From Halothiobacillus sp. (GTDB lineage: Bacteria > Pseudomonadota > Gammaproteobacteria > Halothiobacillales > Halothiobacillaceae): a DNA stretch of 64,000 nucleotides. A program made the translations under genes and the position numbers. The stretch covers positions 1 to 64,000 of the forward strand of contig JAGDVP010000028.1 of NCBI GenBank assembly GCA_023255735.1, given 5' to 3'. Numbering within the stretch: the stretch's first letter is position 1; every line of letters begins with the position of its first letter. The notes below the pieces were generated by a model. It saw nothing but the letters and a program-made list of their open reading frames with translations. It was not told the DNA's origin and did not search any database. This document shows, piece by piece, positions 1 to 36,369 of the stretch.

Positions 1-14
1 CAGATCGACATGCA

Positions 15-39
15 GGCCGGCGCAGACCGGCCTTTTTTT
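15..39 (+). terminator. Rho-independent terminator of an upstream gene
   Basis: A six-base stem GGCCGG/CCGGCC (15-20 with 27-32) with a six-base loop is followed directly by seven T residues (33-39). It ends a plus-strand transcript whose gene lies outside the window, so the aldehyde dehydrogenase gene just downstream needs its own promoter or depends on read-through. Confidence 0.7.
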
Positions 40-54
40 CTCACGGAGATTCGC

Positions 55-1569
55 ATGACTGAAAACTTCAACCGCATCTGGCATCAACACGCCGCAGACC
101 TGATCCAGCGCGGCATCGATGGCCGCATGGTCATCGACGGTCGGCGCTGGAACGCGACAGACGGCAGCCTGTTCGATTGCATTTCTCCGATCGACGGCAA
201 GGTGATCGCCCGCGTGGCGCGTGGCAAGGCGTCCGACATCAACCGCGCGGTCGCCAGCGCCCGCTCCGCGTTTGCAGACCGCCGCTGGGCCGGGCAGCCG
301 CCGGCCGCGCGCAAGAAGGTGATGGTGGCCTTTGCCGAGCAACTGCGCGCCGCGCGCGACGAGCTGGCCCTGCTCGAAACCCTGGACATGGGCAAGCCCA
401 TCAAGAACAGCCTGTCCACCGATGTGCCGGCCGCCGCCCGCTGTCTGCAATGGTTCGGCGAAGCGGTGGACAAGATCTACGACGAAATCGCCCCGACCGC
501 CGACAGCGCGCTGGCGCTGATCACCCGCCAGCCCATCGGCGTGGTCGGCGCCATCGTGCCGTGGAACTACCCGATGCTCATGGCCGCGTGGAAGCTCGGC
601 CCCGCGCTGGCTGCGGGCAACAGCGTGGTGCTCAAGCCCAGCGAAAAGTCGCCGCTGACCGCGCTGCGCCTGGCCGAGCTGGCGCTGGAGGCCGGGCTGC
701 CCGAGGGCGTGTTCAACGTCGTGCCGGGCTATGGACACGAGGCCGGCGAGGCGCTGGCGCTGCACATGGATGTGGACGCGATCGGCTTCACCGGCTCCAC
801 CCGCACCGGGCGGCGCATGCTCGAATACGCCAGCCGCAGCAACTTGAAGCGCGTGTACAACGAGCTGGGCGGCAAGTCGGCCAATATCGTGTTCGCCGAC
901 TTCGACGACCTCGACCGCGCCGCCGCCACCGCCATCGGCAGCATGTTCTACAACCAGGGCGAGAGCTGCAACGCGCCGTCGCGCCTGCTGGTGCAGGACA
1001 GCATCGCCGATGCCTTCGTGGAAAAGCTCGCCGCACTCACGCCGCAGTATCACCCGGCCGATCCGCTCGATGCAGGCACCGTGCTGGGCGCGCTGGTGGA
1101 CGAAACCCAGACGCAGACCGTGCTCGGCTACATCCAGGCCGGGGTGGACGAGGGCGCGCGCTGCGTGACCGGGGGCTGCCGCGCGCTGCAGGAGACCGGC
1201 GGGCAATATGTCGCGCCCACGGTGTTCGATGGCGTGAAAAACAGCATGAAAATCGCGCAGGAAGAAATCTTCGGCCCGGTGCTCGCGGTCATCCGCTTCA
1301 AGACCGAGGCCGAGGCTGTGGCCATTGCCAACGACAGCGCCTATGGCCTGCACGCCGGGGTGTGGTCGCGCAATCTCGACCGTGCGGTGCGCGTGTCGCG
1401 CGCGCTGCAGGCGGGCACGGTGCACGTCAATCAGTACGACGAAGACGACATCACCGTGCCCTTCGGTGGGGTGAAGCAGTCGGGCAACGGCCGCGACAAA
1501 TCGCTACATGCCTTCGACAAATACACCGAACTCAAGACCACCTGGATGCGCATCGACGGCGCGAACTGA
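55..1569 (+). CDS. puuC: Aldehyde dehydrogenase, PuuC-like
   Basis: NAD(P)-dependent aldehyde dehydrogenase of 504 residues, probably oxidising gamma-glutamyl-gamma-aminobutyraldehyde or a similar aminoaldehyde in the cytoplasm during putrescine/GABA breakdown. The catalytic pair is visible: Glu270 in ELGGKS and the nucleophile Cys305 in NQGESCNAPSR. The C-terminal stretch with VPFGGVKQSGNGRDKSLHA is typical of the PuuC group. I chose the ATG at 55 because ACGGAG lies just upstream; the in-frame ATG at 10 falls within the upstream terminator. gabT follows about 100 bases later on the same strand, which supports a shared catabolic role. Codon use is extremely G/C-ending. The family is secure; the exact aldehyde is inferred from similarity and the neighbour. 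Confidence 0.9.
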   Translation: MTENFNRIWHQHAADLIQRGIDGRMVIDGRRWNATDGSLFDCISPIDGKVIARVARGKASDINRAVASARSAFADRRWAGQPPAARKKVMVAFAEQLRAARDELALLETLDMGKPIKNSLSTDVPAAARCLQWFGEAVDKIYDEIAPTADSALALITRQPIGVVGAIVPWNYPMLMAAWKLGPALAAGNSVVLKPSEKSPLTALRLAELALEAGLPEGVFNVVPGYGHEAGEALALHMDVDAIGFTGSTRTGRRMLEYASRSNLKRVYNELGGKSANIVFADFDDLDRAAATAIGSMFYNQGESCNAPSRLLVQDSIADAFVEKLAALTPQYHPADPLDAGTVLGALVDETQTQTVLGYIQAGVDEGARCVTGGCRALQETGGQYVAPTVFDGVKNSMKIAQEEIFGPVLAVIRFKTEAEAVAIANDSAYGLHAGVWSRNLDRAVRVSRALQAGTVHVNQYDEDDITVPFGGVKQSGNGRDKSLHAFDKYTELKTTWMRIDGAN

Positions 1570-1583
1570 ACCCTCCACACCCC

Positions 1584-1640
1584 GGCCCTCCCCACTCTTG
1601 GGGGGAGGCACCAAACACTGCCCCACCGCGTGGGGGAGGC
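1584..1640. repeat. Double hairpin repeat between puuC and gabT
   Basis: Two adjacent GC-rich hairpins fill the intergenic space: CCTCCCC (1587-1593) with GGGGAGG (1602-1608), and CCCCAC (1621-1626) with GTGGGG (1630-1635). No T run follows, so it is not a clean terminator. The sequence resembles the dispersed CCCTCCCC/GGGGAGGG intergenic repeats common in high-GC beta- and gammaproteobacteria. It could stabilise or attenuate the puuC-gabT message. Only one copy is present in this window. Confidence 0.5.
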
Positions 1641-1668
1641 CGGGAGGAGAAACTTTTGGAGCATCACC

Positions 1669-2961
1669 ATGAACCACTCACTCAACGAACAACTCCAGGC
1701 CCGCCGCGCCGCCGCCACCCCGCGGGGCGTGGGCGTGATGGCCAGTTTCTACGCCGATCGCGCCGAGGGCGCCGAACTCTGGGATGTCGAAGGCCAGCGC
1801 TATATCGACTTTGCCGGTGGCATTGCGGTGCTCAACGTCGGCCACCGCCATCCCAAAATCGTCGCCGCGCTGCAGGCGCAATTGCAGCGCTTCACCCACA
1901 CCTGCTATCAGGTCGTGCCGTATGAAAGCTATATCGCGCTCGCCGAAAAGCTCAATGCGCTGACGCCGGGCAGCCATGCCAAGAAAACCGCGCTGTTTTC
2001 CACCGGCGCCGAGGCGGTGGAGAACGCCATCAAGATTGCCCGCGCCTACACCGGGCGTCCGGGGGTGATCGCCTTCGGCGGCGCGTTTCACGGCCGCAGC
2101 CTGTTTGCCGTGTCCCTCACCGGCAAGGTGCAGCCGTACAAGGCGGGGTTCGGCCCCTTCCCGCCCGAGATCTACCACGCCCCGTTCCCCTGTCATTGCG
2201 CCAGCCTCGACGAAACCAGGAAGGCCGTGGACCGGCTGTTCAAGGCCGACATCGAGCCGTCGCGCGTGGCCGCGATCATTTTCGAGCCGATCCAGGGCGA
2301 GGGCGGGTTCAACGTGATTCAGGCCGAGGCGGTGAAGTGGCTGCGCGCACTGTGCGACCAGCATGGCATCGTGCTCATCGCCGACGAGGTGCAGACCGGC
2401 TTTGGCCGCACCGGCAAGCTGTTCGCAATGGAGCATTTCTACGCGCAGACCGGTGTGCTGCCCGATCTGATGACCATCGCCAAGTCGCTGGCCGCGGGCA
2501 TGCCGCTGTCGGCCGTGACTGGCCGCGCCGAGATCATGGACGCGCCCGCGCCCGGCGGGCTGGGCGGCACGTATGCGGGCAACCCGATGGCTGTGGCTGC
2601 GGCGCTTGCCGTGATCGACGTGATGCACGATGAGCAGCTCCCGGCACGCGGCCAGAAGCTGGGCGACGCGCTCAAGGCGCGGCTCACCGCCCTGCGTGCG
2701 CAGGTGCCGCAGATCAGCGATGTGCGCGGCCTGGGCGCGATGGTCGCGGTGCAGTTCAACGACCCGGCCACGGGCCAGCCTGACGCGGCGTTCACCAAGG
2801 CCGTGCAGGCCGAGGCGCTCAAGCGCCATCTCATCCTGCTGACCTGCGGCGTGGACTACAACGTGATCCGCTTTCTGTTCCCGCTGACCATCGCCGATGC
2901 GCTGTTCGCAGAGGGTCTGGACATCTTGGAGGCCGCGCTGCTGCAAGCGGCCGCGGCCTGA
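1669..2961 (+). CDS. gabT: 4-aminobutyrate aminotransferase
   Basis: Class III pyridoxal-phosphate aminotransferase of 430 residues that moves the amino group of GABA (or 5-aminovalerate) to 2-oxoglutarate, giving succinate semialdehyde and glutamate in the cytoplasm. Visible signs are the cofactor-site residues STGAEAVENAIK, the EPIQGEGGF block, DEVQTGFGRTGK, and the Schiff-base lysine Lys272 in TIAKSLAAGMP. The ATG at 1669 was chosen because GGAG lies seven bases upstream; a longer reading would start inside the intergenic hairpins. The preceding gene is a PuuC-like aldehyde dehydrogenase, so the pair can carry putrescine-derived aminoaldehyde to succinate semialdehyde. No gabD is present. 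PuuE is an alternative name for the same activity. Confidence 0.92.
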   Translation: MNHSLNEQLQARRAAATPRGVGVMASFYADRAEGAELWDVEGQRYIDFAGGIAVLNVGHRHPKIVAALQAQLQRFTHTCYQVVPYESYIALAEKLNALTPGSHAKKTALFSTGAEAVENAIKIARAYTGRPGVIAFGGAFHGRSLFAVSLTGKVQPYKAGFGPFPPEIYHAPFPCHCASLDETRKAVDRLFKADIEPSRVAAIIFEPIQGEGGFNVIQAEAVKWLRALCDQHGIVLIADEVQTGFGRTGKLFAMEHFYAQTGVLPDLMTIAKSLAAGMPLSAVTGRAEIMDAPAPGGLGGTYAGNPMAVAAALAVIDVMHDEQLPARGQKLGDALKARLTALRAQVPQISDVRGLGAMVAVQFNDPATGQPDAAFTKAVQAEALKRHLILLTCGVDYNVIRFLFPLTIADALFAEGLDILEAALLQAAAA

Positions 2962-2973
2962 GCGCGGCGTCTT

Positions 2974-3828
2974 TCAGTGAGGCCCGCCGCGACGGATGCG
3001 GTTGCGCCGCGTCATGGGCTTGCACGGCTCGCAATCCTCTTTGCGCGGCTTGCGGCCGTAGCGTCCGGCGTAGCGGTCGAACACGGCGCGCGGCACGATG
3101 TGCAGAAACTTGCTCAGCACCGCCATCTGCCAGGGAATGGTGGCGTAGGCGCGGCCCGAGTCGATCGCACGCAGCGCACGGTCGGCAAACACCGCCGGGG
3201 TGATGAGAAAGGGCATGCGAAAGCGGTTGCCTGCGGTCATCGGGGTCTCGATATAGCCGGGGCTGATGGTGACCACCTTCACGCCGCTGGGACGCAGTTC
3301 CACCCGCAGGCTCTCGAGCGAGCGGATCAGCGCGGCCTTGCTGGCGCAGTAAGCCGCATGACAGGGCAGGCCGCGCACCCCGGCCACGCTGGCAATCCCC
3401 ACCAGCGCGCCGCTGCCGCGCGCGCGCATCGGCGCAATGAACGGGGCCAGGGTGGCCAGCGCAGCCGCCCAGTTGATGTCCATGATGTCGAGGGCCACAT
3501 CGAGGTCGTCGGCCTGCGACAGATCGACGCCGTGGCTGATGCCGGCGTTGGCAATGACCACCTGCGGGCAACCCCATTCACGCAGCAGGGTGTCGGCCTC
3601 GGTGCGCAGGCGATCGGTGTCGCGCACGTCGAGCGCGATCAGCCGCAGCCGGGCGGTGTCGTCCGGTGCCAGGGCGCAGTCGCGTGCGACCTGCTGCAGC
3701 AGCTCGGCGCGGCGGGCGATCAGCACCAGCCGCCAGCCGCGCGCGGCATAGGCCGCAGCCAGCGCAGCGCCAATGCCGCTGGAGGCGCCGGTGATCAGCA
3801 CGATGGGCGCGCTGGCTGTGTCTGTCAT
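2974..3828 (-). CDS. Short-chain dehydrogenase/reductase
   Basis: Classical SDR of 284 residues, a cytoplasmic NAD(P)-dependent oxidoreductase of unknown substrate. The Rossmann motif TGASSGIG starts at residue 13, NAG is at 93-95, and the catalytic set Ser147, Tyr160 and Lys164 (YCASK) is complete. The C-terminus is a basic tail rich in Arg and Lys with two Cys residues (EPCKP). Its ATG overlaps the stop codon of lptC by an ATGA junction, so it is probably translated from the same message as the LPS genes. In most proteobacteria lptA follows lptC at this point; here the SDR stands in that place. A role in lipid or envelope metabolism is a guess from context only. Confidence 0.85.
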   Translation of the reverse strand: MTDTASAPIVLITGASSGIGAALAAAYAARGWRLVLIARRAELLQQVARDCALAPDDTARLRLIALDVRDTDRLRTEADTLLREWGCPQVVIANAGISHGVDLSQADDLDVALDIMDINWAAALATLAPFIAPMRARGSGALVGIASVAGVRGLPCHAAYCASKAALIRSLESLRVELRPSGVKVVTISPGYIETPMTAGNRFRMPFLITPAVFADRALRAIDSGRAYATIPWQMAVLSKFLHIVPRAVFDRYAGRYGRKPRKEDCEPCKPMTRRNRIRRGGPH

Positions 3829-4445
3829 GGCTTGCCTGCGGGTGTGGGGCTGGCGGGAACGATGACCGCTTTCACCCGGCCCTGCAAGGTCGCGGTGCCG
3901 TCAACGCCGTTGAAGTCGAGGCTGTTGCCGGAAAACTGCGTCTGCCCCTGCTGCACCACGGTGGGACGGTTGGACTGCACGATCTGCTGATTGGGGAAGA
4001 TGTTGAGAAAGTCGCTGCGCACGACCACGGGCGGCTGGTTTGCCGTACCGCTGCGCTCCACCACGGCGTTGCCCAGCAGTTGCACATTGCTGCCGTCCTT
4101 GTTGGACAGGCCGCGCAGCGCGGTGGCCGTGGTGACCAGGCCTTGCGGGTTGACCGCGCGCAGCTGGGGCGCGGTGATGTCGAAGGTGTCGGTGGCTGGC
4201 AGATGCACCATCTGCGTGCCGCGCAGCACGGCGCTGAGCTGGCCTTGGGCGTTGTAGGTCGCGGCGGAAAAGTCGCGCAGCAAATAGTCGGGCAACGTGG
4301 ATTGCGCCGGACTGAGCCTGGGGTGCTGCTCGGCCTGCATGACCACCTGCGCCACCCACCAGCTGAATGCGGCGGCGATGGCCAGCAGCAGCACAGGCGT
4401 CCAGGCGCTCAGCCGAAGCCAGAATTGACGCAGATTCAGTCGCAT
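3825..4445 (-). CDS. lptC: LPS export protein LptC
   Basis: Inner-membrane bitopic protein of about 206 residues that links LptB2FG to LptA in the LPS transport bridge. After a short basic N-terminus there is one transmembrane helix (residues about 13-34, ending in a WWVAQ segment), then a periplasmic domain with the repeating beta-strand pattern of the LptC/OstA fold (YLLRDFSAATYNAQGQ, VVVRSDFLNIFPNQQI). I chose the ATG at 4445, which begins MRLNLRQFW; the reading frame is open further upstream but would overlap kdsC and place an Arg-rich stretch before the helix. kdsC ends 13 bases upstream. lptA and lptB are not in the window. Confidence 0.85.
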   Translation of the reverse strand: MRLNLRQFWLRLSAWTPVLLLAIAAAFSWWVAQVVMQAEQHPRLSPAQSTLPDYLLRDFSAATYNAQGQLSAVLRGTQMVHLPATDTFDITAPQLRAVNPQGLVTTATALRGLSNKDGSNVQLLGNAVVERSGTANQPPVVVRSDFLNIFPNQQIVQSNRPTVVQQGQTQFSGNSLDFNGVDGTATLQGRVKAVIVPASPTPAGKP

Positions 4446-4458
4446 GGCCGGGTGCGCC

Positions 4459-5118
4459 TCAGCGGGCGCTGGGTTTGACCGCGCCGGGCTCGGCCAGGGT
4501 GCCACTGACCGGGTTCGACGGCGCCGGGGACGCCGATGCGCCACTCCTGGGCGGGGTATGCGGCTTGCCGTCGAGCGCGTCCTGCAGCAGGGCGGCGTAG
4601 ACGCCGCGCGCGGTCAGCAGCAGATCGCAGACCTCGCGCACCGCGCCCAGGCCGGCGGGGGCGCGGGTGACATGGCGTACCCGGGCGAGGACCTCGGCAT
4701 GGCTGCTCGGCGGCGCGGCGCTGAACGCGGCGCGATGGATCAGCGCCAGATCGGGCCAGTCGTCGCCGATGACGGCCACCTGCGACCAGCGCAGCTGCAG
4801 GCGGTCGAGCAGGGCTTGCGCTGCGGGCAGCTTGGCGCCGCTGCCCAGGATGCTGTGCTGCAGACCCAGCTCGGCGATGCGCGCGCGCAACGCGGGGCTG
4901 TCGCGGCCGGAGACGATGACGGGTTCGACCCCCGCGCTCATCAGCAGCTTCAGGCCGTGGCCGTCGAGGGTGGAAAAACGCTTGAGTTCCTCCCCCTGCG
5001 CGCCGTAGAGCAGGTCACCAGGAGTGAGCACGCCGTCCACGTCGAGCAGCAGCAGGCGCACGTCGAGCGCAGCAAGCACCAGCGCGGGGTCAAAGGCGAG
5101 GCGGGGCGTGGCGTCCAT
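4459..5118 (-). CDS. kdsC: 3-deoxy-D-manno-octulosonate 8-phosphate phosphatase
   Basis: HAD-family phosphatase (219 residues) that removes phosphate from KDO-8-phosphate in the cytoplasm, the third step of KDO synthesis for lipid A core. The nucleophile motif is DVDGVLT with Asp26 and Asp28; then IVSGRDS (motif II), the Lys of GAKLPAAQ, and IGDDWPDL (motif IV). It sits directly between kdsD and lptC, a conserved LPS order. The last 45 or so residues form a Pro/Ser/Ala-rich tail beyond the usual end of the family; this tail is not needed for the fold and its role is unknown. Confidence 0.9.
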   Translation of the reverse strand: MDATPRLAFDPALVLAALDVRLLLLDVDGVLTPGDLLYGAQGEELKRFSTLDGHGLKLLMSAGVEPVIVSGRDSPALRARIAELGLQHSILGSGAKLPAAQALLDRLQLRWSQVAVIGDDWPDLALIHRAAFSAAPPSSHAEVLARVRHVTRAPAGLGAVREVCDLLLTARGVYAALLQDALDGKPHTPPRSGASASPAPSNPVSGTLAEPGAVKPSAR

Positions 5119-5136
5119 GGCGGCAGAGTTCCTGTG

Positions 5137-6135
5137 TCAGATGACCTTGGCGGCAAACAGGTCGTGCGTGTTCAGCGCGCCGACGGGCCTGCCCTGCGGA
5201 TCGACAACCAGCAGTTGATTGATGCGGAATTGCTCCATGAGTTGCACCGCTTCGACCGCCAGCGCATCCGGGCCGATGGTGCGCGGTTGCGGATGCATGG
5301 CCTGCTGCGCCTGCAGGGTGTTGAGGTTGGCGCCCTTTTCGATCAACCGGCGCAGGTCGCCGTCGGTGATGATGCCCTGCAGCACGCTCTGTGCATCGAC
5401 CACCGCAGTCATGCCCAGGCCCTTGCGCGTGATTTCCATCAGCGCCGCGGTGAACGGCGCGTCGCCCGGCACACTGGGCACGGCTTCGCCGCTGCGCATC
5501 ACGTCGCGCACATGGGTGAGCAGCTTGCGCCCCAGGCTGCCGCCGGGATGGGTGCGGGCGAAGTCTTCCGGGCCGAAGCCGCGGGCATCGAGCAGCGCCA
5601 CCGCCAGCGCGTCGCCCAGCGCGAGCTGCGCCGTGGTGCTGGCCGTGGGCGCGAGGTTGAGCGGGCAGGCTTCTTGTTCCACCGCGCAGTCCAGCAGGAT
5701 GTCGGCGTGCCGCGCCAGCGTGGAGTCGGTACGGCCGGTCATGCTGATGAGTGTGGCCCCCAGGCGCTTGACCTGCGGCACGATGCGAGTGAGCTCCTCG
5801 GTCTCGCCAGAGTTGGACAGGGCGAGGAACACATCGTCCTTGGTCACCATGCCGAGGTCGCCGTGGCTGGCCTCGGCGGGATGCACAAAGTACGCCGGGG
5901 TGCCGGTGGAGGCCAGGGTGGCAGCGATCTTGCGCCCGACATGGCCCGATTTGCCCATGCCCGACACCACGACGCGCCCGGTGCTTTGCAGCATGCACTG
6001 CACCGCCTGCGCAAACGCTGCGGCGAGTGGCGGTGCAAGCAATCGCTCGCGCAACGCCAGCAGGGCGCGGGCTTCGATGTCGAGGGTGTCGCGCGCGAGC
6101 TGCGTGGCCCGGTCAGACGAGAATGGAATGTGCAT
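5137..6135 (-). CDS. kdsD: Arabinose-5-phosphate isomerase
   Basis: Cytoplasmic isomerase of 332 residues that converts ribulose 5-phosphate to arabinose 5-phosphate, the first step of KDO synthesis. An N-terminal SIS sugar-isomerase domain (residues about 40-180, with SGMGKSGHVGRKI and ALSNSGETEE) is followed by two CBS domains (about 208-330). The length matches the KdsD family. It begins the kdsD-kdsC-lptC-SDR run on the minus strand, 18 bases upstream of kdsC. The response regulator gene ends 41 bases before it on the same strand, separated by a weak hairpin. Confidence 0.92.
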   Translation of the reverse strand: MHIPFSSDRATQLARDTLDIEARALLALRERLLAPPLAAAFAQAVQCMLQSTGRVVVSGMGKSGHVGRKIAATLASTGTPAYFVHPAEASHGDLGMVTKDDVFLALSNSGETEELTRIVPQVKRLGATLISMTGRTDSTLARHADILLDCAVEQEACPLNLAPTASTTAQLALGDALAVALLDARGFGPEDFARTHPGGSLGRKLLTHVRDVMRSGEAVPSVPGDAPFTAALMEITRKGLGMTAVVDAQSVLQGIITDGDLRRLIEKGANLNTLQAQQAMHPQPRTIGPDALAVEAVQLMEQFRINQLLVVDPQGRPVGALNTHDLFAAKVI

Positions 6136-6146
6136 TGCGGCAGTAT

Positions 6147-6176
6147 AAAAACCGCCGCGGCTGCGCGTGCGCCGCG
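6147..6176 (-). terminator. Possible weak terminator after the response regulator
   Basis: Read on the minus strand, CGCGGC (6176-6171) pairs with GCCGCG (6161-6156) across a nine-base loop, and a run of five T (6151-6147) follows after four GC bases. The distance between stem and T run makes it weak, so read-through into kdsD is likely. Confidence 0.35.
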
Positions 6177-6812
6177 TCAGCGCACGATGCCCTGATGCAT
6201 GGCGTAGCGCACCAGATCGGCGTCGTTGTCGAGGGCGAGTTTGTGCATCAGGCGGGTCTTGTGCGTGCTCACGGTCTTGCAGCTGATGTGCAGTTCTTCC
6301 GCCACCTGATTGACCGACTTGCCCTCCACCAGCCGCATGAACACCTGCATTTCCCGGTCGGAGAGGCGGGCGTGCGGCTCCTCTGCCGCGTCACCCTCGT
6401 TCATGTAATTGGCCAGTTGCTCGGCCACGCCGGGAGTGAGGTAGCGCCCGCCCTGCACCACCTTGTGAATCGCCTCGACCAGCACGTCCGGGCTGCAGCC
6501 CTTGGTGAGATAGCCCGCCGCGCCGCCGCGCAGCGCGCGCAGGGCAAATTGCTGTTCCGGGTGCATGCTCAGAATCAGCACGGGCAATTCTGGATGCACG
6601 AGCTTGATGCGCTTGAGCAGATCGAGGCCGTTGCCTTCGGGCATGGACAGGTCGAGCAGCACCACGTTCCAGACCTGTTCGCGGATGGATTGCATGGCCC
6701 GGGCGATGTCGCCGCACCAGACCGCCTCCATGCCATTGGAGCCGAGAAAACGCGCCAGGCTCTCGCCCAGCAGCGCGTGGTCGTCAATGATGAGCACGCG
6801 CAGATCATCCAT
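6177..6812 (-). CDS. NarL/FixJ-family response regulator
   Basis: Two-component response regulator of 211 residues. The receiver domain (about 1-120) carries the acidic pair Asp10/Asp11 and phosphoacceptor Asp54 in LLDLSMPEG; the C-terminal LuxR-type helix-turn-helix (about 145-211) contains VNQVAEELHISCKTVSTHKTR. I chose the ATG at 6812 (MDDLRVLIIDD); it overlaps the end of the sensor kinase gene by eight bases, so the pair is co-translated. The target genes are not evident. The divergent neighbour past the kinase is the barrel lipoprotein at 8,412. Confidence 0.92.
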   Translation of the reverse strand: MDDLRVLIIDDHALLGESLARFLGSNGMEAVWCGDIARAMQSIREQVWNVVLLDLSMPEGNGLDLLKRIKLVHPELPVLILSMHPEQQFALRALRGGAAGYLTKGCSPDVLVEAIHKVVQGGRYLTPGVAEQLANYMNEGDAAEEPHARLSDREMQVFMRLVEGKSVNQVAEELHISCKTVSTHKTRLMHKLALDNDADLVRYAMHQGIVR

Positions 6813-7956
6813 GCTGCACCGCCTCGGTGATGGGCATGCACACCCGCACCCGTACCCCGCCATGAGGCGACGTGTCGAGCTGGAAGTCGCCGCCAAAGAC
6901 CGCCGCCCGCTCGCGCATGCCGCGCAGCCCCAGGTGGGGGCGGCTGGCAGGCTGCGTCTGCCGGGTGTAACCGATGCCGTCGTCCTCCACCGAAATGCAG
7001 ATCAGCCCTCCCTTGGCATCGACGCAGCGCACCCAGGCTTGGCGCGCGTGGGCATGCCGCACCACATTGGTCAGGCCCTCCTGGGCAATGCGAAACAACT
7101 CGGTCGCAATCAGTTCGCCGACCTCGCCCTGGTAGTTGAGTTCGGTATGGACGCGAATGCCATAGCGCTTGGCGTATTGCTCGGCCATCCAGCGCAGGCC
7201 CGCCTTGAGGCCCAGGTCGAGCACGCTGGGCCGCAACTCGGCAGCCACCCGCCGCCCGGCCTCGGCGGCGGCGTGGATGAGCTTGTCGATATTGGCAAAC
7301 AACTCGGGCGCCTGGCTCGCGCCGAATTGCCTGCGCAGCAAGGCCACATCCATTTGCAGCGCCGTGAGCACCTGCCCCAGATCGTCATGCAGATCACGCG
7401 CCATGCGGGCGCGCTCGGCCTCGCGCACCGATTCGAGGTGAGAGGCGATCTGCCGCAGATCGGTGGACAGGTTGCGCAATTGAGATTCGCGCAGATGCGT
7501 CTGGGTGACATTGAGCATGACACCGGTCGATTCCGTCGTCAGGGCGTCGACCGTGCGGGAGCGCGCGCGCACATTCACCCACTTCAAGCCATGCGGCGTT
7601 TGCAGGCGTCCTTCCCAGTTCCACGACCCCGCCGCAGCACTGGCCTGCAGGCTGGCATGAAACGTTGCGAGGTCCTGCGCATCGATCATGGCAAGGAATC
7701 GTTGCGCCGAGCACAGCAGATCGTCTGCCCGCAGGCCGCAGACCGCCAGGCAACTGGCGCTGGCAAAGTCAAAACGCAGCAGCGTGCCGTCGTGGCGCAC
7801 GCGGAAGACGAAGCCCGGGAGTTGATCGATCAGCTCATGCAGATCGACTGCCGGGTCAGACGCGCACGCGTCCTGCGGGCGAACCAACGGCACGCTAGCG
7901 GAGGTTGCTGCCGCAGCGCAGCGTTCCGGGGGAGCAGCAGACAAGGCAACCTCCAT
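6805..7956 (-). CDS. Soluble PAS-domain sensor histidine kinase
   Basis: Histidine kinase of the NarX/DegS-like HisKA_3 type, 383 residues, partner of the response regulator that overlaps its 3' end. A PAS-like region spans about residues 40-155, followed by the dimerisation helix with phosphoacceptor His190 in ARDLHDDLGQ, and an ATPase domain with FRIAQEGLTNVVRHA, EDDGIGY and GLRGMRERA. There is no transmembrane helix or signal peptide, so it senses an internal signal. The first 35 residues are low-complexity. It is the last gene with the strongly G/C-ending codon use of the left part. Confidence 0.9.
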   Translation of the reverse strand: MEVALSAAPPERCAAAATSASVPLVRPQDACASDPAVDLHELIDQLPGFVFRVRHDGTLLRFDFASASCLAVCGLRADDLLCSAQRFLAMIDAQDLATFHASLQASAAAGSWNWEGRLQTPHGLKWVNVRARSRTVDALTTESTGVMLNVTQTHLRESQLRNLSTDLRQIASHLESVREAERARMARDLHDDLGQVLTALQMDVALLRRQFGASQAPELFANIDKLIHAAAEAGRRVAAELRPSVLDLGLKAGLRWMAEQYAKRYGIRVHTELNYQGEVGELIATELFRIAQEGLTNVVRHAHARQAWVRCVDAKGGLICISVEDDGIGYTRQTQPASRPHLGLRGMRERAAVFGGDFQLDTSPHGGVRVRVCMPITEAVQHG

Positions 7957-8411
7957 GAGCAGGGAAACCCCTTAATGGTCGCATCACAAGAACTGCATGA
8001 CAAAATGACAACAAAATGCGCAATAAAACGCTATTGCCTGTGAGTTCAACACGTTTTTTGTCAACGTGCAAAAGCGGTCAGAAAATTCTGACAGAGAAAC
8101 CAGCAATTTCCGACGCGGCAACTCAGCGGGCGCTGATCGACTTGTTGTCGGGAAGAGTCCACAATTCACCACCTTAAATCGGCATTATTGGCAGCGGCGA
8201 CGGCTGCGACCGGGCTCAATGGATTGGAGCTCTGGTTTCTTGGGCGCGCATTTCCAGACCTTGTCGATCACTTGTAACAAAAAGTCCATTTGTTATCGAT
8301 ATGTTGTGGCGTTTCAGGGCACTTGCCCATGAAATTCGCCGAATTTTGATGGTGTGCTTCAGTGTGAACCAAAAGCGTCCGCTGGTGGAGCGCCCAAATC
8401 AGGGAGTTGTC
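7957..8411. other. Divergent intergenic region with three inverted repeats
   Basis: Gene-free region between the sensor kinase and the barrel lipoprotein, which diverge. It contains three perfect short inverted repeats within 75 bases: GCAATA/TATTGC (8020-8037), CACGTT/AACGTG (8050-8068) and GTCAGAA/TTCTGAC (8077-8092). These may be operators or promoter elements. TTGACA can be read on the minus strand at 8064-8059, but no clear -10 follows. Base composition changes from very GC-rich to mixed across this stretch. I see no gene in it. Confidence 0.5.
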
Positions 8412-9539
8412 ATGAATTCATCCATTCGGAAGGCGACAGCCGCTGCGCTGATGGTTTCGGTCCTTCTTTCGTCATGTGGCGGGGGCGGAACAACGGATGT
8501 CGCTGCGGCCAACACGGCAACTGCGGGCACGGGAACCGCTGCAATCGCCAGCCCGCAGCCCACGATCACTGGCGGTACCGCGCCGAGCAATCCGACTCCG
8601 ACGCCTGTACCGGCTCCGACTCCGACTCCGACATCAAATCCGGGTCTGGCCTACACCACCGCCCACGCGGTGATTCAACAAGCATGGATTACCCAAAACA
8701 GCCTATTTGGCATGCAAGATGTTCTGGCCGATGACCATCCGAGCGCTTGGTGGATCGACACCGCACGCGCGCAGGGCGGCGCAAATGCCAGCGATGTCAG
8801 TCAACAGTCGATTGTTGTTGGCGGGCAGTTCGCCGCCCGATCGAATTGGAACGTGGGCGCGGCCTTTGCCGTCGGGCGCAACCACACTCAGGATGCCGCG
8901 CAACAAGTCAATGGAGGCAACCTAGGCTTATTTGGTTACGGCGCGTACCGGATGGGCTCCTGGCGTTTTGACGCGCAGATTGGTGCTGGCCGACTCACGC
9001 AAGATAGCACCCGCGATCTCAATCCCACTGGGCTGATAGCCAAGGGGAGCACTCAAGGTCGGTATGCCGCAGCCGGCGTCAAACTGCGCTATCACCAGTC
9101 GCTTGGCAACTCGGCTTTTGCCGAGCCCTATGCTACTGCCGCTTATGTGTACACCCACACCAATGCGTTTGCAGAACAAGGTGCCGGGCTGCTGAATCTT
9201 GATTACGCCGCACAGGATATCCATTTGGGACGAATCTCCGCCGGCGTTAAAACCGGGATGAATTTAGACGCTGGCAACGGCCTGCGCATCCAGCCTTGGG
9301 TTAAAGTCGGCGCGGCTGCCTATGTGGGGGATAAAACCAATCAGCAAAACCTGACATTAGGCGTGCTCACGCAACCGATGACCGGCCGGGTAGCGCCGAA
9401 CGCCACGCTGGAAACCGGCGCAGGCATTCAGTTGGTTTCTGCCGATGGTCATTTGAGCAGCAGTCTTTCTTATAGCGGCGCGTTTAGTTCTGAGGGGCAC
9501 CTCAATGGGGTTCACTTAAATTTGCGCTACCAGTGGTAA
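8412..9539 (+). CDS. Autotransporter-type beta-barrel lipoprotein with a minimal passenger
   Basis: Protein of 375 residues. It starts with a signal peptide ending in a lipobox (LLSSC, Cys22) followed by GGGG, then an Ala/Thr-rich stretch and a Pro-Thr repeat linker (about 58-78). The rest (about 85-375) has the alternating strand pattern of an autotransporter barrel domain, with glycine-rich turns and a final aromatic residue (LRYQW). The normal large passenger domain is missing, so the barrel would display only the short linker. RBS AGGGAG lies at 8401-8406. It faces the two-component system across the inverted-repeat region. Function unknown; the barrel call is from pattern only. Confidence 0.75.
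   Translation: MNSSIRKATAAALMVSVLLSSCGGGGTTDVAAANTATAGTGTAAIASPQPTITGGTAPSNPTPTPVPAPTPTPTSNPGLAYTTAHAVIQQAWITQNSLFGMQDVLADDHPSAWWIDTARAQGGANASDVSQQSIVVGGQFAARSNWNVGAAFAVGRNHTQDAAQQVNGGNLGLFGYGAYRMGSWRFDAQIGAGRLTQDSTRDLNPTGLIAKGSTQGRYAAAGVKLRYHQSLGNSAFAEPYATAAYVYTHTNAFAEQGAGLLNLDYAAQDIHLGRISAGVKTGMNLDAGNGLRIQPWVKVGAAAYVGDKTNQQNLTLGVLTQPMTGRVAPNATLETGAGIQLVSADGHLSSSLSYSGAFSSEGHLNGVHLNLRYQW
8592..8633 (+). repeat. Hexanucleotide repeat CCGACN in the linker
   Basis: Imperfect tandem copies of CCGACT (with CCGACG, CCGGCT and CCGACA variants, interrupted by CCTGTA) encode the Pro-Thr linker of the barrel lipoprotein. The unit is six bases, so a change in copy number keeps the frame and alters only linker length. 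Confidence 0.7.
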
Positions 9540-9792: not shown

Positions 9793-10131
9793 GATGTTCT
9801 TCTTTTCAAGTCAAATGAGTTGGCGCTGCGCTGGTGTTATTGCTCGCTTGGCGGTGATCTATTAATAGATCCGGTCGATAGCATCCAACGGTAACATATT
9901 CTCGTAAATCGCAAAATTATGTTTTTTAGCACGTTACGGCGCGAAAATCGGGTGCTAGCAGCTTGCTCGCCTTAACGCAGTTCTACTACCAAAAAACCAG
10001 ATTTGGCTCTATTTCCGCCGATTTTTCGTTAAATGGAACAACCATTCGCCTCAAAATCGTGAATGCGCGTTCAAACTGGACATTTCTTCGTGACGAATGG
10101 TCAAGTCCGACAGGCTGCCACCGGGGTGATT
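9793..10131. other. Gene-free region with a 16-bp palindrome
   Basis: Stretch between the small lipoprotein start and the end of mntH. It contains the perfect palindrome GATCTATTAATAGATC at 9856-9871, 64 bases upstream of the lipoprotein start and thus a possible operator for it. The rest is AT-rich with no convincing reading frame and no clear terminator for mntH. Confidence 0.5.
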
Positions 10132-11364
10132 TCAGCTCGTAAAGAGTAAATAGCTGTTTAGGCTGACTACCACGGCCACCACCGACCAACCCAACCAATT
10201 GACCCAGGCCGGGTTGACATAGCCGCGCATGAGGCGTTTGTTGCTGGTAAATAGCATGAGGGGCACCAATGCTAAGGCGATGCCAAACGATAAAACGACT
10301 TGGCTGAACACCAAAACTTGGGTCACATTTAAGCCCAAATAAATAATGATGAACGAGGGCGTCATGGTGAGGGCGCGGCGCAATGCAATGGGGATGCGGA
10401 ATTTTACAAAGCCGCTCATAATTTCCTGCCCGGCCAAGGTGCCTACTATGGTTGAGGCTAAACCTGCGATGAGCAAGCTTGCACCAAAAATTTGCGCCGC
10501 TATTTGGCCAAGCAAAGGCGTGAGCGTTTGATAGGCATTTTCAATGCTGCCCGATTCTGCATTCGGGTTGCCGTAAAACACGGCGGCGGCCATGGCGAGC
10601 ATGGATAAATTCACAAAGCCTGCGATGGTCATGGCGAGGGCGACATCCCATTTCATGCTGCGAAACATGGATTTGCGGTGCTGTTTGCCGTATTTGGTTA
10701 ATTCTGCTTTCGTCATGGCCGAGTGCAAGTAGATGACGTGCGGCATCACGGTGGCCCCCAAAATACCGGCAGCTAAAAATACGCTATCGCGGCCATCAAA
10801 CCCGGGAATCAGCACTCCTGTGATAACGGACGCAGGGTGTGGGTGGCTGTAAAATAATTCCACCACATAAATTAAGGCAACCGATAACAGCATGGTGCCA
10901 ATCACGATTTGCAGGCTTTTGACATTGCGATGCTCTAGGCTTAAAACCGCCCAGCTAATGAGGGCGGTTATCATCGCGCCTTGCATTAAGGTGAAGCCAA
11001 ACAAGAGCTTAAAGCCCAATGCAGCGCCAATAAATTCGGCAATATCGGTGGCCATGGCCAATATTTCAGCTTGGATCCAGTAAGGATAAACCGCCCATGC
11101 GGGCAGTTGGTTGCCCAGCATGGAGGCCAATGATTCTCCGGTGGCTAACCCGAGTTTTGCTGAGAGCATTTGAATGAGGGCGGCCATGAGATTCGCCCAC
11201 ACGACAACCCACAAAAGCAGGTAGCCAAAATCTGCCCCGGCTTGAATATTGGTGGCGTAGTTACCGGGATCAATGTAGCCAATGGCGGCGACAAAAGCCG
11301 GCCCCAAAAACAACGCGCGCGCGCGCCGATGGGCGCGGGGGGTGGGTGAAGCTATGGGTTGCAT
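10132..11364 (-). CDS. mntH: Nramp-family divalent metal transporter
   Basis: Proton-coupled Mn(II)/Fe(II) importer of the inner membrane, 410 residues with about 11 helices. The metal-binding motif of helix 1 is DPGN (in IGYIDPGNYATN), and helix 6 carries MPH (in TVMPHVIYLHS), both diagnostic of the family. Residue count matches MntH (about 410). It stands alone, with its own upstream region containing an inverted repeat that may be a metal-regulator operator. Codon use is A/T-tolerant, like everything to its right. Confidence 0.93.
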   Translation of the reverse strand: MQPIASPTPRAHRRARALFLGPAFVAAIGYIDPGNYATNIQAGADFGYLLLWVVVWANLMAALIQMLSAKLGLATGESLASMLGNQLPAWAVYPYWIQAEILAMATDIAEFIGAALGFKLLFGFTLMQGAMITALISWAVLSLEHRNVKSLQIVIGTMLLSVALIYVVELFYSHPHPASVITGVLIPGFDGRDSVFLAAGILGATVMPHVIYLHSAMTKAELTKYGKQHRKSMFRSMKWDVALAMTIAGFVNLSMLAMAAAVFYGNPNAESGSIENAYQTLTPLLGQIAAQIFGASLLIAGLASTIVGTLAGQEIMSGFVKFRIPIALRRALTMTPSFIIIYLGLNVTQVLVFSQVVLSFGIALALVPLMLFTSNKRLMRGYVNPAWVNWLGWSVVAVVVSLNSYLLFTS

Positions 11365-11385
11365 GAATAATCCGTTTTTAGCTTG

Positions 11386-11405
11386 AACTAATTTATAGTT
11401 TAGTT
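11386..11405 (-). promoter_or_regulatory. Inverted repeat upstream of mntH, possible operator
   Basis: AACTAA (11386-11391) and TTAGTT (11400-11405) form a perfect inverted repeat around an AT-rich eight-base centre, 22 bases before the mntH start codon. The position suits a repressor overlapping the promoter. It does not match the Escherichia coli MntR or Fur consensus well, so the regulator is unknown. Confidence 0.35.
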
Positions 11406-11524
11406 AGGGCTAAGTTTTGATGCAAGCCCGATTTCGGCGCTGGCGGCGGGGGCGCGGGCGCGGGGGATTGGGCGTTCGGTTGGTACGCCCCCAAAACGAC
11501 GAGCCGCTTGGGGCGAATAACGAT

Positions 11525-12370
11525 TTAATTAAATGAACGAATATCGATTTGGTTTTTAGCATCAAGCTCAATTAACACGCGCTTGCCCCACGCGGGATGA
11601 TTCGCTAATTGCTCACCATCAAGGTAAATTCCGTTGATGGCGATAATTTCGGGCTCAAATGATTCGCAAAAAATGCGGGCTTGAATGAGGCCATTCACGC
11701 CGGCCGCAGCGGTGCCTTTGAGCGCGCCATGCACATAAATCGAGCCATCGGCGACTACGCGGGCGCCGGTGCTCACCATGCTGATAATGATGAGATCCGC
11801 TTGTTTGGCATAAAATTCAGCACCCGAACGCACGGGGTGGCGAATGACGAGCGGGGGGTGCAGATCATGCGCGGATAGTTTTGGCTCTTTGGGTGCGGGT
11901 GCCGCCTTAACTTCGGGGTTGGCCGCTGGGGCCGGCGCAATCGGTTCGGGCGGTGCGGGTGGGGTTGGCAGAGGGGTGGGTTGCGCCTCTTGGCTGCGAG
12001 TAGAATTGAGCGAACCGACGGGCAATCTTGGTTCAATTTGTGGCAAGCGGGCGAGCTTGGCTTGTTCCCGCTGTTTGGGATTGCCCCCCATTACGGCGAT
12101 GGGGTCAAGTTTGTAATTGCGCAGCAAGCTCAAAAGCGCGGGAAAATCGACCCATTTGCCGCTATTTTCGATGCCGGAGAGGTCAATCAAAATGGGTTCG
12201 GGTTCTGCAAAAACCCCCTGCCCGCCGAAGGTGTCTTTGAACGCACGGGTTAATTTCAAAAGGTGGGTTTCGCGTAAAACCAATCGGGATACGGGGGTTG
12301 GCACATGCTGCAGGCTAAAAGCCTCGTGCTCAATCGCGGGGAAGTTGGCCGAAACGGGGGCGTTGCTCAT
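11525..12370 (-). CDS. minC: Septum site-determining protein MinC
   Basis: Inhibitor of FtsZ ring assembly, 281 residues, recruited to the membrane by MinD. The N-terminal FtsZ-interacting domain (about 15-120) is followed by an unusually long Pro/Ala/Glu linker (about 128-165) and the C-terminal right-handed beta-helix domain (about 170-281) with VRSGAEFYA, GARVVADGSIYVHGAL and ARIFCESFEPEIIAINGIY. zapD lies 48 bases upstream in the same direction, so they may be co-transcribed. minD and minE, which normally follow minC, are not here: the next gene downstream is mntH. Confidence 0.92.
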   Translation of the reverse strand: MSNAPVSANFPAIEHEAFSLQHVPTPVSRLVLRETHLLKLTRAFKDTFGGQGVFAEPEPILIDLSGIENSGKWVDFPALLSLLRNYKLDPIAVMGGNPKQREQAKLARLPQIEPRLPVGSLNSTRSQEAQPTPLPTPPAPPEPIAPAPAANPEVKAAPAPKEPKLSAHDLHPPLVIRHPVRSGAEFYAKQADLIIISMVSTGARVVADGSIYVHGALKGTAAAGVNGLIQARIFCESFEPEIIAINGIYLDGEQLANHPAWGKRVLIELDAKNQIDIRSFN

Positions 12371-12418
12371 AGATTTTTCATAAATTTTAAGAAAGGGTAC
12401 GGATAGGCCGAGGGCTCG

Positions 12419-13192
12419 CTACAACTGGCACAGCGCCATTTGAAAGGTGACATCGTGATTGACTTGATACGGGTGGCCGGTTTCCCGATCTAGCCGCATA
12501 AACCGAATGGTTACCCGGTGTTTGCTGGCGCTCACTTCTGGGTACACATTGGCTTGCGCCGGCAATGATACACGGGTCAGTTGATAGGGCAGGCCCGATT
12601 CTAAATTGAGCTGAAAAAATCCTTCTTCCGCGCAAAACTCAGCCTCGGCCACGCTCGTGCGGATGAGGCTGAGTACCAAATCATTGGCGGTGCGAATCAG
12701 GCCGAGCGGGGCAATCCAAGCGGCCATATCCGCTTGGCGCTCGCTGGGCGGCAGGCTGAGCCAATAATGCAGGGCGGCCAGATCAAACGCACACAGCGCG
12801 CCCGGGATGGAGGCGCGTTGGCGCACGGCGTTAATCAGTTCGTGGTTTTTAAGGTGCGCGCCCGGTGTGCCGGGGTAGCGGTGCAGCTCATCTAATAGGT
12901 GGGCTTGTTGATCGAGCAGTTGATGGAGCTTGTCGGCATTGATTTTAGGGGTGTTGGCAACGTGCAAGAGCTTGGCTTGTTGGCGTTCTAGCTCTTTGAT
13001 GAGTTCGCGTTTGACATCAATTCGCCCAAGCACATCGGTCGCTTCAATTAAAATTAAAATAGCGCAGAGGGTGGATTCGGCCGATTCATCATTCAGGTGA
13101 TAATCCATGCGGCTAAAGAGGTATTCCAGCCGCAAACAGGCGCGAATACGCTCGTTTAAAGGCTGTTCAAAAATATGGAATGACGGGGGCAT
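12419..13192 (-). CDS. zapD: Cell division protein ZapD
   Basis: Cytoplasmic FtsZ-bundling protein of 257 residues that stabilises the Z ring. Recognised by the N-terminal FEQPLNERIRACLRLEYLF and the C-terminal half with IAPLGLIRTANDLVLSLIRTS, then the strand-rich end. Length agrees with the family (about 250). Its usual neighbours coaE and yacG are absent; here it pairs with minC, which brings an FtsZ activator and an FtsZ inhibitor together. Confidence 0.9.
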   Translation of the reverse strand: MPPSFHIFEQPLNERIRACLRLEYLFSRMDYHLNDESAESTLCAILILIEATDVLGRIDVKRELIKELERQQAKLLHVANTPKINADKLHQLLDQQAHLLDELHRYPGTPGAHLKNHELINAVRQRASIPGALCAFDLAALHYWLSLPPSERQADMAAWIAPLGLIRTANDLVLSLIRTSVAEAEFCAEEGFFQLNLESGLPYQLTRVSLPAQANVYPEVSASKHRVTIRFMRLDRETGHPYQVNHDVTFQMALCQL

Positions 13193-13262
13193 TTTTTTGT
13201 AAATTACCTTTTAAATCAATAAAATGATTTGTGTTAAAGGGCGGTGTGGTGATTTATTTGCT

Positions 13263-13370
13263 TTATCCATTTATCTGCCGCTTATTCTGTTTTGAGGCTA
13301 AATCTTGTAAAACCCAGGCGGCGGTAGTTCGGCCAACCCCGCGCCCTTGGGATGAGGCATGATAGGTCAT
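13263..13370 (-). CDS. Possible small ORF coupled to metH
   Basis: A 35-residue frame whose ATG overlaps the metH stop codon in an ATGA junction. The peptide has a middle segment, [15 protein letters not shown], that could form two helices. No homologue comes to mind. It may be a chance frame; the translational coupling is the only positive sign. Confidence 0.25.
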
Positions 13371-16300
13371 TCCGGCTCGTAGCCCAAAACCGGCGCCAGC
13401 CAGCGTTCGGCTTCTTTTAAGGGCCAGCCTTTGCGCTCGGCGTAATCGTGCACTTGATCGCGGCCAATTTTGCCGGTGCCAAAATAGCGCGCCTGCGGAT
13501 GCGCGAAATACCAGCCCGAAACCGCCGCCCCAGGGAACATGGCATAACTTTCGGTGAGCGCAATACCCGCGTGGGAATCGGGTTCCAGTAACGACCACAG
13601 CGTGCCTTTTTCGGTGTGATCGGGGCAGGCCGGATAGCCCGGCGCGGGGCGAATGCCTTGGTAGCGCTCGGCAATTAAATCGGCATTGCTGCTTGCTTCA
13701 TCGGGCGCATAGCCCCAAAACTCGGTGCGTACCCGCTGATGTAAGCGCTCAGCAAAGGCCTCGGCCAAGCGATCGGCCAGGGCTTTTAACAAAATGGCGT
13801 GGTAGTCATCCAGCGCTTGCTCGAAGCGGGCAATGTGCGGTTCGATGCCATGGCCGGTGGTGACGGCAAAACCGCCAATCCAATCTTTGATTTTGGCACC
13901 GGTTGGGGCGATAAAATCGGATAAGCATTGATTGGGCTTACCGCCGCTGCGCGGCATTTGCTGGCGAATATTGTGCAGGGTGGTATGCACGGCTTGGCGC
14001 TTTTCATCCGCGAAAATGCGGATGTCGTCATCGATGCTGGCGGCGGGCCAAAAACCAATGACGCCACTGGCTTTCACCCATTTTTCTTCGATGATGGTTT
14101 TAAGCATTTTTTGCGCATCATCGAAGAGCCTTTGCGCTTCACTGCCCACCACTTTATCGGTCAAAATATCGGGATATTTGCCAAAAAGCTGCCAGCTTTG
14201 AAAGAAGGGGGTCCAGTCGATGAAGGCTATGAGGTCATCGAGCGGATAGTCTTCAAACACGGTAATGCCCGGCGTTTTTGGGGCGGTGGGCGTGTAGTCG
14301 GTAAAATCCATGATTTGTTTATTGGCGCGGGCTTCAGCCAATGAAACGCGTTTGTCTTCGGCTTGATTGGCTTTGCGGCGGGCGACCAGCGCCGCGTATT
14401 CCTCATTAATTTGGGCGGCAAAGCTCGCCTTGTTGGTACCGAGTAAGTTGGCCGCGACGCCCACCGCGCGCGAGGCATCCAGCACATGCACGACGGGTTG
14501 CTGGTACACGGGGGCGATTTTGAGCGCGGTGTGCAGCTTTGAGGTGGTGGCGCCGCCAATCATTAAGGGAATGGTGAAGCCCTGGCGTTGCATTTCACTG
14601 GCGACGGTGACCATTTCATCGAGCGACGGGGTAATTAGGCCCGATAAGCCGATGAGGTCGCATTGTTCGGCGATGGCGGTATCGAGGATTTTTTGCGTGG
14701 GCACCATCACGCCCAAATCGACAATCTCGAACCCATTGCATTGCAGCACCACACCGACGATATTTTTGCCGATGTCGTGCACATCGCCTTTCACTGTGGC
14801 CATTAAAATCCGCCCGGCCGATTGCGCGGCGCAGCCGCCGGCGGCGGCTTCGGCTTCCATAAACGGCATGAGGTGGGCAACGGCTTTTTTCATGACGCGG
14901 GCAGATTTAACCACTTGCGGCAGAAACATTTTGCCGGCACCAAATAAATCACCGACAACATTCATGCCGTCCATCAAGGGGCCTTCGATAACATGCAGCG
15001 GGCGGGCAGCGGCAAGGCGCGCTTCTTCGGTATCTTCAATCACAAATTGATCGATGCCTTTCACCAGCGAGTGCGCTAGGCGTTCGTTCACGGGTAATTC
15101 ACGCCAGCTCATATCCAGCGTTGTTTTGGCATCTCCTGTGCCGGTGCCGCGATATTTTTCGGCAATCTCCAGCATGCGGTCGGTGGCATCTATGCGGCGA
15201 TTTAAGACTATATCTTCCACCGCTTCGCGCAGCTCGGCGGGAATGTCATCAATCAGCACGAGTTGCCCCGCGTTGACAATGCCCATATCCATGCCGGCGG
15301 CGACGGTGTGGTTTAAAAAGACGCTGTGGATGGCCTCGCGCACCGGCTCATTACCGCGAAACGAGAACGATACGTTAGAAACACCGCCAGAAATGAGCGC
15401 ATGGGGCAGGTTTTGCTTGATCCAGCGTGTGCCTTCGATGAACTCCACCGCGTAGTTGTTGTGCTCTTCAATGCCGGTGGCAATCGCGAAAATATTCGGG
15501 TCGAAGATGATGTCTTCGGCCGGAAAGCCCACCTCTTGCGTGAGCAGTTTGTATGCGCGGGTACAAATCTCGATGCGCCGAGCCACGGTATCGGCTTGGC
15601 CTTGTTCATCGAACGCCATCACAACCGCCGCCGCGCCATAACGGCGCACCAAGCGGGCGTGCTCAAGGAAAATTTCCTCGCCTTCTTTCATGGAAATGGA
15701 GTTGACGATGGACTTGCCCTGCACCCACTGCAAGCCTTTTTCAATGACGTGGAATTTTGAGCTATCGATCATGATCGGCACGCGCGAAATGTCGGGCTCG
15801 GCCGCAATCAGCTTGATAAACCGCTCCATGGCGGCCTCGCCGTCAATGAGGCCTTCATCCATGTTGATGTCGATGACTTGCGCGCCGGCTTCTACCTGCT
15901 GGCGGGCGACATCCAAGGCGGCGGTGTAATCACCTTCTTTAATGAGGCGGCGAAAACGCGCGGAACCGGTCACATTGGTGCGCTCGCCCACATTCACAAA
16001 TAAGGATTCGGCGGTGATGTTAAAGGGCTCCAAGCCCGATAAGCGGCACGCCGGCGCAGGCTTGGGTAGCACGCGTGGCGGGAAGGGGGCCACCTGTTTG
16101 GCCATGAAAGCGATGTGCTCTGGCGTGGTGCCGCAGCAACCGCCCACGATATTGATTATGCCGGCGGCAGCCCATTCGCCGATTTGCTGCGCCATCGGGT
16201 CGGCTTCCAGATCATATTCGCCGAGCTCATTGGGCAGCCCCGCGTTCGGGTGCACGGAAACCGGAAATTCACTCACCCTTGAGAGTTCGGCCACATATTG

Positions 16301-17083
16301 GCGCAGCAAATCAGGGCCGAGCGCACAATTTAGGCCAATCGATAAGGGCTTGGCGTGGCGCAGGCTGTTGTAAAACGCTTCTGTGGTTTGGCCTGAGAGC
16401 GTGCGCCCCGAGGCATCGGTAATGGTACCGGAAATCATGACCGGCCAGCGTATCCCGCGCGATTCGAACAGTTCTTCGAGCGCGAACACGGCGGCTTTGG
16501 CGTTTAGGGTGTCGAAAATGGTTTCGATCATCAGAATATGCGCGCCGCCTTCGATTAAGCCCTCCGCCGATTCGCGGTAGGCGATCACGAGCTCCTCGAA
16601 GGTGACATTGCGAAAGCCCGGGTCGTTGACATCCGGCGAAATCGAGCCCGTGCGGCTGGTAGGGCCAATCACACCGGCCACAAAGCGCGGTTTATCGGGA
16701 GTTTCAAGCGTTTTGGCATCGGTGCAGGCGCGGGCGAGTTTCGCGGCGGCCACGTTAATTTCCCGCGCGAATTCTTGCATTTCGTAGTCAGCCATCGAAA
16801 TGCGGGTGGCGTTAAAGGTGTTGGTTTCGATGATATCCGCGCCCGCATCCAAATAGCCTTTATGGATGCCTTCGATGATGCTGGGATTGGTTAAAACCAA
16901 AAGATCATTATTGCCTTTAAGGTCAATCGGCCAATCTTTGAAGCGCTCGCCGCGATAATCGGCCTCTTTCAGTTTGTGCTTTTGAATCATGGTGCCCATC
17001 GCGCCATCGAGCATTAAAATGCGCGTGTGCATCAGGTCGCGAAGGGGGGTGAAAATGGGGTGTTCGGTGGGTTTTTTATACAT
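13367..17083 (-). CDS. metH: Cobalamin-dependent methionine synthase
   Basis: Large cytoplasmic enzyme (1238 residues) that moves a methyl group from 5-methyltetrahydrofolate through cobalamin to homocysteine. All four modules are visible: homocysteine-binding domain (about 1-330) with zinc ligands Cys253, Cys316 and Cys317 (GGCCGTT); pterin-binding domain (about 360-630); cobalamin-binding domain (about 660-900) with His769 in DVHDIGKN and the base-stacking GLSGLITPS block; and the reactivation domain (about 930-1238) with [12 protein letters not shown] for S-adenosylmethionine. Length is normal. Only 42 bases separate it from the DUF2062 gene upstream, so there is no room for a cobalamin riboswitch directly before it. 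Confidence 0.97.
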
Positions 17084-35434: not shown

Positions 35435-36369
35435 AACGTTGCAAACACTCATTCGGAGCTTGCTCCGACTTATTTTACGCCCCCTGTTTCGGATTGAGGT
35501 GCGGGGTGCGGCGCCAACACACCGGGGTGATGCAAAACTGCTGGTTTCGGTGGGGGCTTAAATTAGTGGATACCGTGGCGGTTGATCCGCTGCGGCCAAT
35601 CGGCATGAAAACCGTGCTTAAAGCGTTAAAGTCGGGCCGACCGGTGGTGATTTTTCCCGAAGGCCGTATTAGCAATACCGGCGGGCTTATGAAGGTGTAT
35701 GACGGGTCGGCCATGCTGGCCACTTTGAGCGGGGCGGAACTTATTCCCGTGCGTCTTGATGGCTTAAAACGCAGTTATTTCAGTCGGATGTCGTCCGAGC
35801 AGCCGAAATCATGGCTACCCAAAGTAACCCTCACCCTTTTGCCCGCCACCCGGATTGATTCATTTAAGACCCCGAGGGTAAGCCCAAAGGCGTGGTGTGG
35901 TCGCATCGCGCGCTTATGGCCAACGTGGCGCAAGTTCAATCCGTGTTTGATTTAACACCCACCGATAACCTGCTGAATGGATTGCCTATTTTTCATGCTT
36001 TTGGTTTAACGGGTGGGCTGCTCTTACCCTTGCTAACCGGGGCGCGGGTGTTTTTGCACGTATCGCCGCTGCAGTACAAACTGGTGCCAGAAATTGCCTA
36101 TGATCGCAATTGCACCCTGCTATTTGGCACCAGCACCTTTTTAGCCAACTATGGCAAATTTGCCCATCCTTATGATTTTCACCAATTGCGCTATGTCATC
36201 GCTGGGGCCGAAAAACTCAATCCGGCCGTTCAAACTTTGTGGTTTAACAAATTTGGTTTACGCATTTTGGAAGGTTATGGTGTCACTGAAACCGCGTCTG
36301 CTTCTGAAAGTCGCCAACATCGCCCTGCTGGGCTCGGGCAAAATTGATTACCAAACCTTAAAACTATAG
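35427..36369 (+). pseudogene. aas: Collapsed aas (acyltransferase/acyl-ACP synthetase) pseudogene
   Basis: Remnant of the bifunctional 2-acylglycerophosphoethanolamine acyltransferase/acyl-ACP synthetase, normally about 700 residues but here about 940 bases. Four pieces remain in order: the N-terminal start (35427-35560); the acyltransferase part with RPVVIFPEGRISNTGGLMK (to about 35872); part of the adenylating domain from [17 protein letters not shown] through [14 protein letters not shown] (about 35874-36295); and the last residues [16 protein letters not shown] (to 36369). Between them, three stretches are missing, including the HX4D acyltransferase motif, and the frame changes. The intact start and end and the intact lplT next to it suggest recent decay by internal deletions. 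Confidence 0.88.

Follow-up and report, generated by a model that had tools for sequence, protein, structure and literature searches.

Does the sharp change of composition near 8 kb of this contig mark DNA transferred between genera, or two genomes joined in assembly? A sequence-only reading had offered both explanations; our analysis demonstrates two sources and favours the second. The window covers bases 1 to 64,000 of contig C4, which is 230,762 bases long and belongs to a genome of 2.06 Mb in 29 contigs with 93.5% completeness and a listed contamination of 0.22%. Given the 29 contigs and the completeness, we take the genome to be a MAG. Coordinates of the features discussed are collected in Table 1.

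Table 1. Features of the window around the change of origin, with the basis of each assignment
Feature	Position	Strand	Basis or remark
Thiomonas-derived block, foreign to remaining contig	1..8591		Collinear DNA match and tetranucleotide profile
Aldehyde dehydrogenase (PuuC-like)	10..1569	+	Pfam Aldedh 6e-170; best NCBIfam PRK09847.1, under its curated cut-off
gabT, 4-aminobutyrate--2-oxoglutarate transaminase	1669..2961	+	TIGR00700.1, 622.8 bits (cut-off 506.65)
SDR family oxidoreductase	2974..3828	-	NF005437, 342.2 bits (cut-off 266)
lptC	3825..4544	-	TIGR04409.1, 135.7 bits (cut-off 38)
kdsC	4459..5118	-	TIGR01670.1, 132.1 bits (cut-off 106.95)
kdsD (Thiomonas-type copy)	5137..6135	-	TIGR00393.1, 357.7 bits (cut-off 203.7)
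LuxR-type response regulator	6177..6812	-	Pfam Response_reg and GerE
PAS sensor histidine kinase	6805..7956	-	Pfam HisKA_3, HATPase_c
Intergenic stretch of Thiomonas origin, apparent composition change	7957..8411		455 bases, G+C 0.492; aligns to L026 and L030
Fusion ORF, 375 aa	8412..9539	+	Thiomonas lipoprotein N-terminus, Thr-Pro linker, native-genus autotransporter beta-domain
Junction, (CCGACT)n linker common to both parents	8591..8632	+	Shared identical bases
Native C-terminal autotransporter part, passenger missing	8643..9539	+	Pfam Autotransporter 4.5e-31
Native genes: transporter (mntH-like), two ORFs, metH (names by hand)	10132..17083	-	Same-genus match

Composition along the window

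The eight 1-kb tiles of window positions 1-8000 have G+C of 0.648-0.709; the mean over the 55 tiles of positions 9001-64000 is 0.525 and the maximum 0.592. For GC3, the eight left genes give 0.79-0.89, and the 19 genes sampled on the right give 0.41-0.66. As a control, we took 478 full 1-kb tiles in 40 stretches elsewhere in this genome, leaving out contig C24, which is masked throughout; their G+C peaks at 0.632, short of even the lowest left tile. Measured by tetranucleotide distance, positions 1-8600 lie far from the native genome (0.488) and close to Thiomonas (0.114), and six pieces from the right side the other way round (0.104-0.189 to the native genome, 0.44-0.60 to Thiomonas). Tiles, GC3, control and tetranucleotides together confirm the step in composition and codon use reported near 8 kb. 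The step is real and not due to chance.

Origin of the left block

Positions 1-8,591 align collinearly and without a break, at 86-89% DNA identity, to one Thiomonas-type MAG contig (JAJXTO010000006; G057:C9:96514-104952, hereafter L026). The same gene order lies on one contig in another such genome (G060); elsewhere in Thiomonas it is split over contigs or the genes stand wider apart. The closest long DNA pieces have 89-90% identity, and none of the genomes compared matches the block at 95% or above. As long pieces reach no more than 89-90%, the genomes compared do not include the exact donor population.

The product of the left kdsD has 91-96% amino acid identity to five copies from the clade of Thiomonas bhubaneswarensis and T. 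intermedia, L026 included, versus 56-58% to the product of the genome's own kdsD (C4:146,598-147,551). The sequence-only reading had proposed placing genes of both sides in trees; this was done for kdsD as the sole gene, with 33 proteins, and the two copies are placed differently. The left copy falls in a set supported at 100/99 together with five of the seven rows labelled Thiomonas in the tree, and the native copy groups with its own genus. Three of the five Thiomonas rows were named by their place in the tree; G057, G060 and G061 were named also by the genus listing around T. bhubaneswarensis. On these sequence comparisons, we assign the left block to a Thiomonas chromosome.

The block was not found in the nine same-genus genomes, where the best long match has 72% DNA identity; a related aldehyde dehydrogenase-gabT pair (70-72% identity) is present in four of them. 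The second copies of kdsD-kdsC-lptC, which were to be looked for elsewhere in the genome, do exist: intact native kdsD, kdsC and lptC lie at C4:144-148 kb, so the recipient did already own the LPS genes of the left block, as had been supposed.

Place of the junction

The step had been put near 7,960. That holds for composition, which changes at 7,957 because the histidine kinase gene, and with it the coding region, ends there. It does not hold for the origin, which changes some 630-670 bases further right, between 8,591 and 8,632. A junction at 7,957 is ruled out, as Thiomonas-type sequence carries on through the intergenic stretch and 60 codons into the following gene. In Thiomonas too, the 450 bases upstream of the corresponding gene have G+C of 0.489 (L026) and 0.502 (L030).

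The first 60 codons of the ORF at 8412-9539 are those of a Thiomonas lipoprotein gene, with similarity extending to about 8,591. In Thiomonas this gene has a Thr-Pro or similar linker followed by a long C-terminal domain, and at two loci (L030 and L236) it continues beyond the linker into its own C-terminus. (The L236 copy, from genome G071, contains a short masked stretch, which was left unchanged.) Here the reading frame passes instead through NPTPTPVPAPTPTPTSNPG into an autotransporter beta-domain. The L236 linker shares 23 identical bases with window positions 8610-8632; the linkers of two native-genus autotransporter genes share 20, at 8614-8633 (L143, genome G002) and 8613-8632 (L144, genome G009). 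The 23- and 20-base words coincide in place, the parents being known here through the DNA of relatives. Two origins, the site where one gives way to the other and the presence of the repeat in the gene families of both parents are thereby on record as observed.

The shared word recurs once more in the genome, on contig C11, where it lies in the (CCGACT)n linker of a native lipoprotein gene (G000:C11:5900-7384, L013); the lipoprotein gene of Thiomonas that meets the junction has such a linker too. Across 1.3-1.4 kb, this native gene has 74-77% DNA identity to five copies from Thiomonas, which may reflect a genuine exchange between these lineages at an older date.

The autotransporter parent

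The beta-domain has 47% amino acid identity over 300 aa to the C-terminus of autotransporters of 1709 aa (G009) and 1760 aa (G002), in which it follows directly on a TP linker, behind a passenger of about 1,400 aa. These two homologues, the composition and the native neighbours argue that the beta-domain gene is native; it was found in only two of the nine same-genus genomes, and not in the nearest ones. The Thr-Pro linkers of the two autotransporters of about 1,700 residues (L143:5261-10543 and L144:9474-14603) differ in length between the two genomes, one being of about 10 residues and the other of more than 60.

The whole ORF could not be attributed to Thiomonas: no match beyond 8,633 was found in the 13 genomes of that genus searched, and positions 8641-64000 match none of nine Thiomonas loci. 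Nor was the native passenger found in this genome's assembly. Another contig end was considered as its place and rejected, the only matches (E 0.004 and 0.18) being to the Thr-Pro part of the query.

Genes to the right of the junction

The genes at 10,132-17,083 encode products with 94%, 81%, 95% and 93% amino acid identity to those of one same-genus stretch (G005/L146), and by sequence comparison the right side belongs to the genome's own genus. Scans of the window for tRNA genes and Rfam families found nothing.

A dispersed element of about 165 bases lies at 9955-10118. Copies with 87-89% identity occur in four further places of the genome (G000:C29:298378, C10:102573, C4:112252 and C8:60529), and copies with 80-86% in one same-genus genome (G007). 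Several copies end in CTAGCAGCC...GGCTGCTAG, in the manner of a miniature inverted-repeat transposable element; the ends of the window copy are worn. Within 35494-36347, two ORFs (35494-35955 and 35892-36347) overlap and, judged by the starts of their translations, look like fragments, in two different frames, of a single acyltransferase / acyl-CoA synthetase gene, possibly owing to a frameshift or a sequencing error.

Join by the assembler or in the cell

With a probability of roughly 0.93, the contig is a metagenome-assembly chimera, in which a low-complexity k-mer common to both led from a Thiomonas piece into the binned genome. The sample would have contained a Thiomonas population that supplied bases 1 to about 8,600, the remainder being that of the binned genome; the assembler would have crossed from the Thiomonas lipoprotein gene to the genome's autotransporter gene via the (CCGACT)n Thr-Pro linker, along some 20 or more identical bases. 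That the assembler and not the cell made the join, and that one sample supplied both parents, we infer.

This reading is favoured by the single junction at a short repeat, the position of the block at the contig end, the lack of a continuation and the retention of the native LPS genes. The block opens at base 1 of the contig. We looked for its continuation in 54 contig-end stretches (from the 28 contigs besides C4 and from C4's own far end); none was found in the 53 readable ones (one is masked), whose highest 1-kb G+C is 0.632. Three features of a chimeric contig are present: an abrupt change of lineage, a junction at a word common to both parents and a differing continuation in intact relatives. 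A telling point is that L026, an independent contig, also breaks in the linker of the same lipoprotein gene, at a (CCCGCA)n run.

Passages of PMC7299287 describe how de Bruijn graphs connect distant sequences through k-mers they have in common, and how contigs from metagenomes can be chimeric. One join within a low-complexity word present in both parents is the product to be expected when such an assembler takes a wrong edge (PMC7299287). The present contig resembles those short-read cases in that two genomes are joined at a shared short repeat; it differs from them, as far as those passages go, in having distant genera as parents and, as the joining word, a coding Thr-Pro linker with only 20-23 identical bases in relatives. 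It is also akin to contig chimerism of the GUNC type, as outlined in parts of PMC8201837, in that lineage shifts along one contig; unlike that type as outlined there, the foreign part is short (8.6 of 231 kb), in a genome listed at 0.22% contamination. Against an assembly join we count the statement, in the same parts of PMC8201837, that misassemblies are rarer than mis-binning. The lack of a genome matching the block at 95% or above, and the presence of the beta-domain gene in only two of nine same-genus genomes, also weigh on that side.

Also counted against it is the in-frame fusion, as would be seen in a real gene, and this speaks for a recent transfer, in which 8.6 kb or more of a Thiomonas chromosome would have entered this genome by recombination at the (CCGACT)n repeat, with loss of the autotransporter passenger. 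The point is answered by the shared linker codons: both parents encode Pro-Thr with the same codons, so that a join within the repeat preserves the frame. Gene families common to both genera, such as the lipoprotein gene on C11, perhaps tell of earlier passage between the lineages. We nevertheless consider such a transfer improbable. The LPS housekeeping genes brought in would be redundant. There is a single junction, the other end of the block being the contig end, and none of the 53 readable stretches shows a second one. The block is missing from the nine same-genus genomes. Nor were the marks of a genomic island (a mobility gene, a tRNA target or flanking repeats) seen: the scan of the window gave no tRNA gene, none of the block's genes is an integrase or transposase, and the outer flank lies beyond the contig. 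Slightly less credible still is the fuller scenario of in-cell recombination between unrelated genera at a Thr-Pro repeat of 20-odd bases, bringing in a second kdsD-kdsC-lptC set and creating a lipoprotein-anchored autotransporter barrel.

A native high-G+C segment with local composition bias, for which no supporting point was found, is refuted by the tile survey (0 of 478 comparable tiles) and by the place of the left kdsD in the Thiomonas clade of the tree, and native copies of the same genes stand elsewhere in the genome; we give it practically no weight.

Consequences for annotation

What was found is most likely an artefact and no real feature. Unless reads show otherwise, the genes at 10-7,956 and the fusion ORF should be dropped from the genome's gene list; the fusion ORF does not merit annotation as a natural gene. 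The second kdsD-kdsC-lptC, gabT, the aldehyde dehydrogenase, the two-component pair and the fusion ORF should not serve as evidence for transfer from Thiomonas. The false gene stays open and looks natural because codons and reading frame agree between the two linkers; it is a worked case of how coding Thr-Pro repeats common to different genera can yield natural-looking, in-frame chimeric genes.
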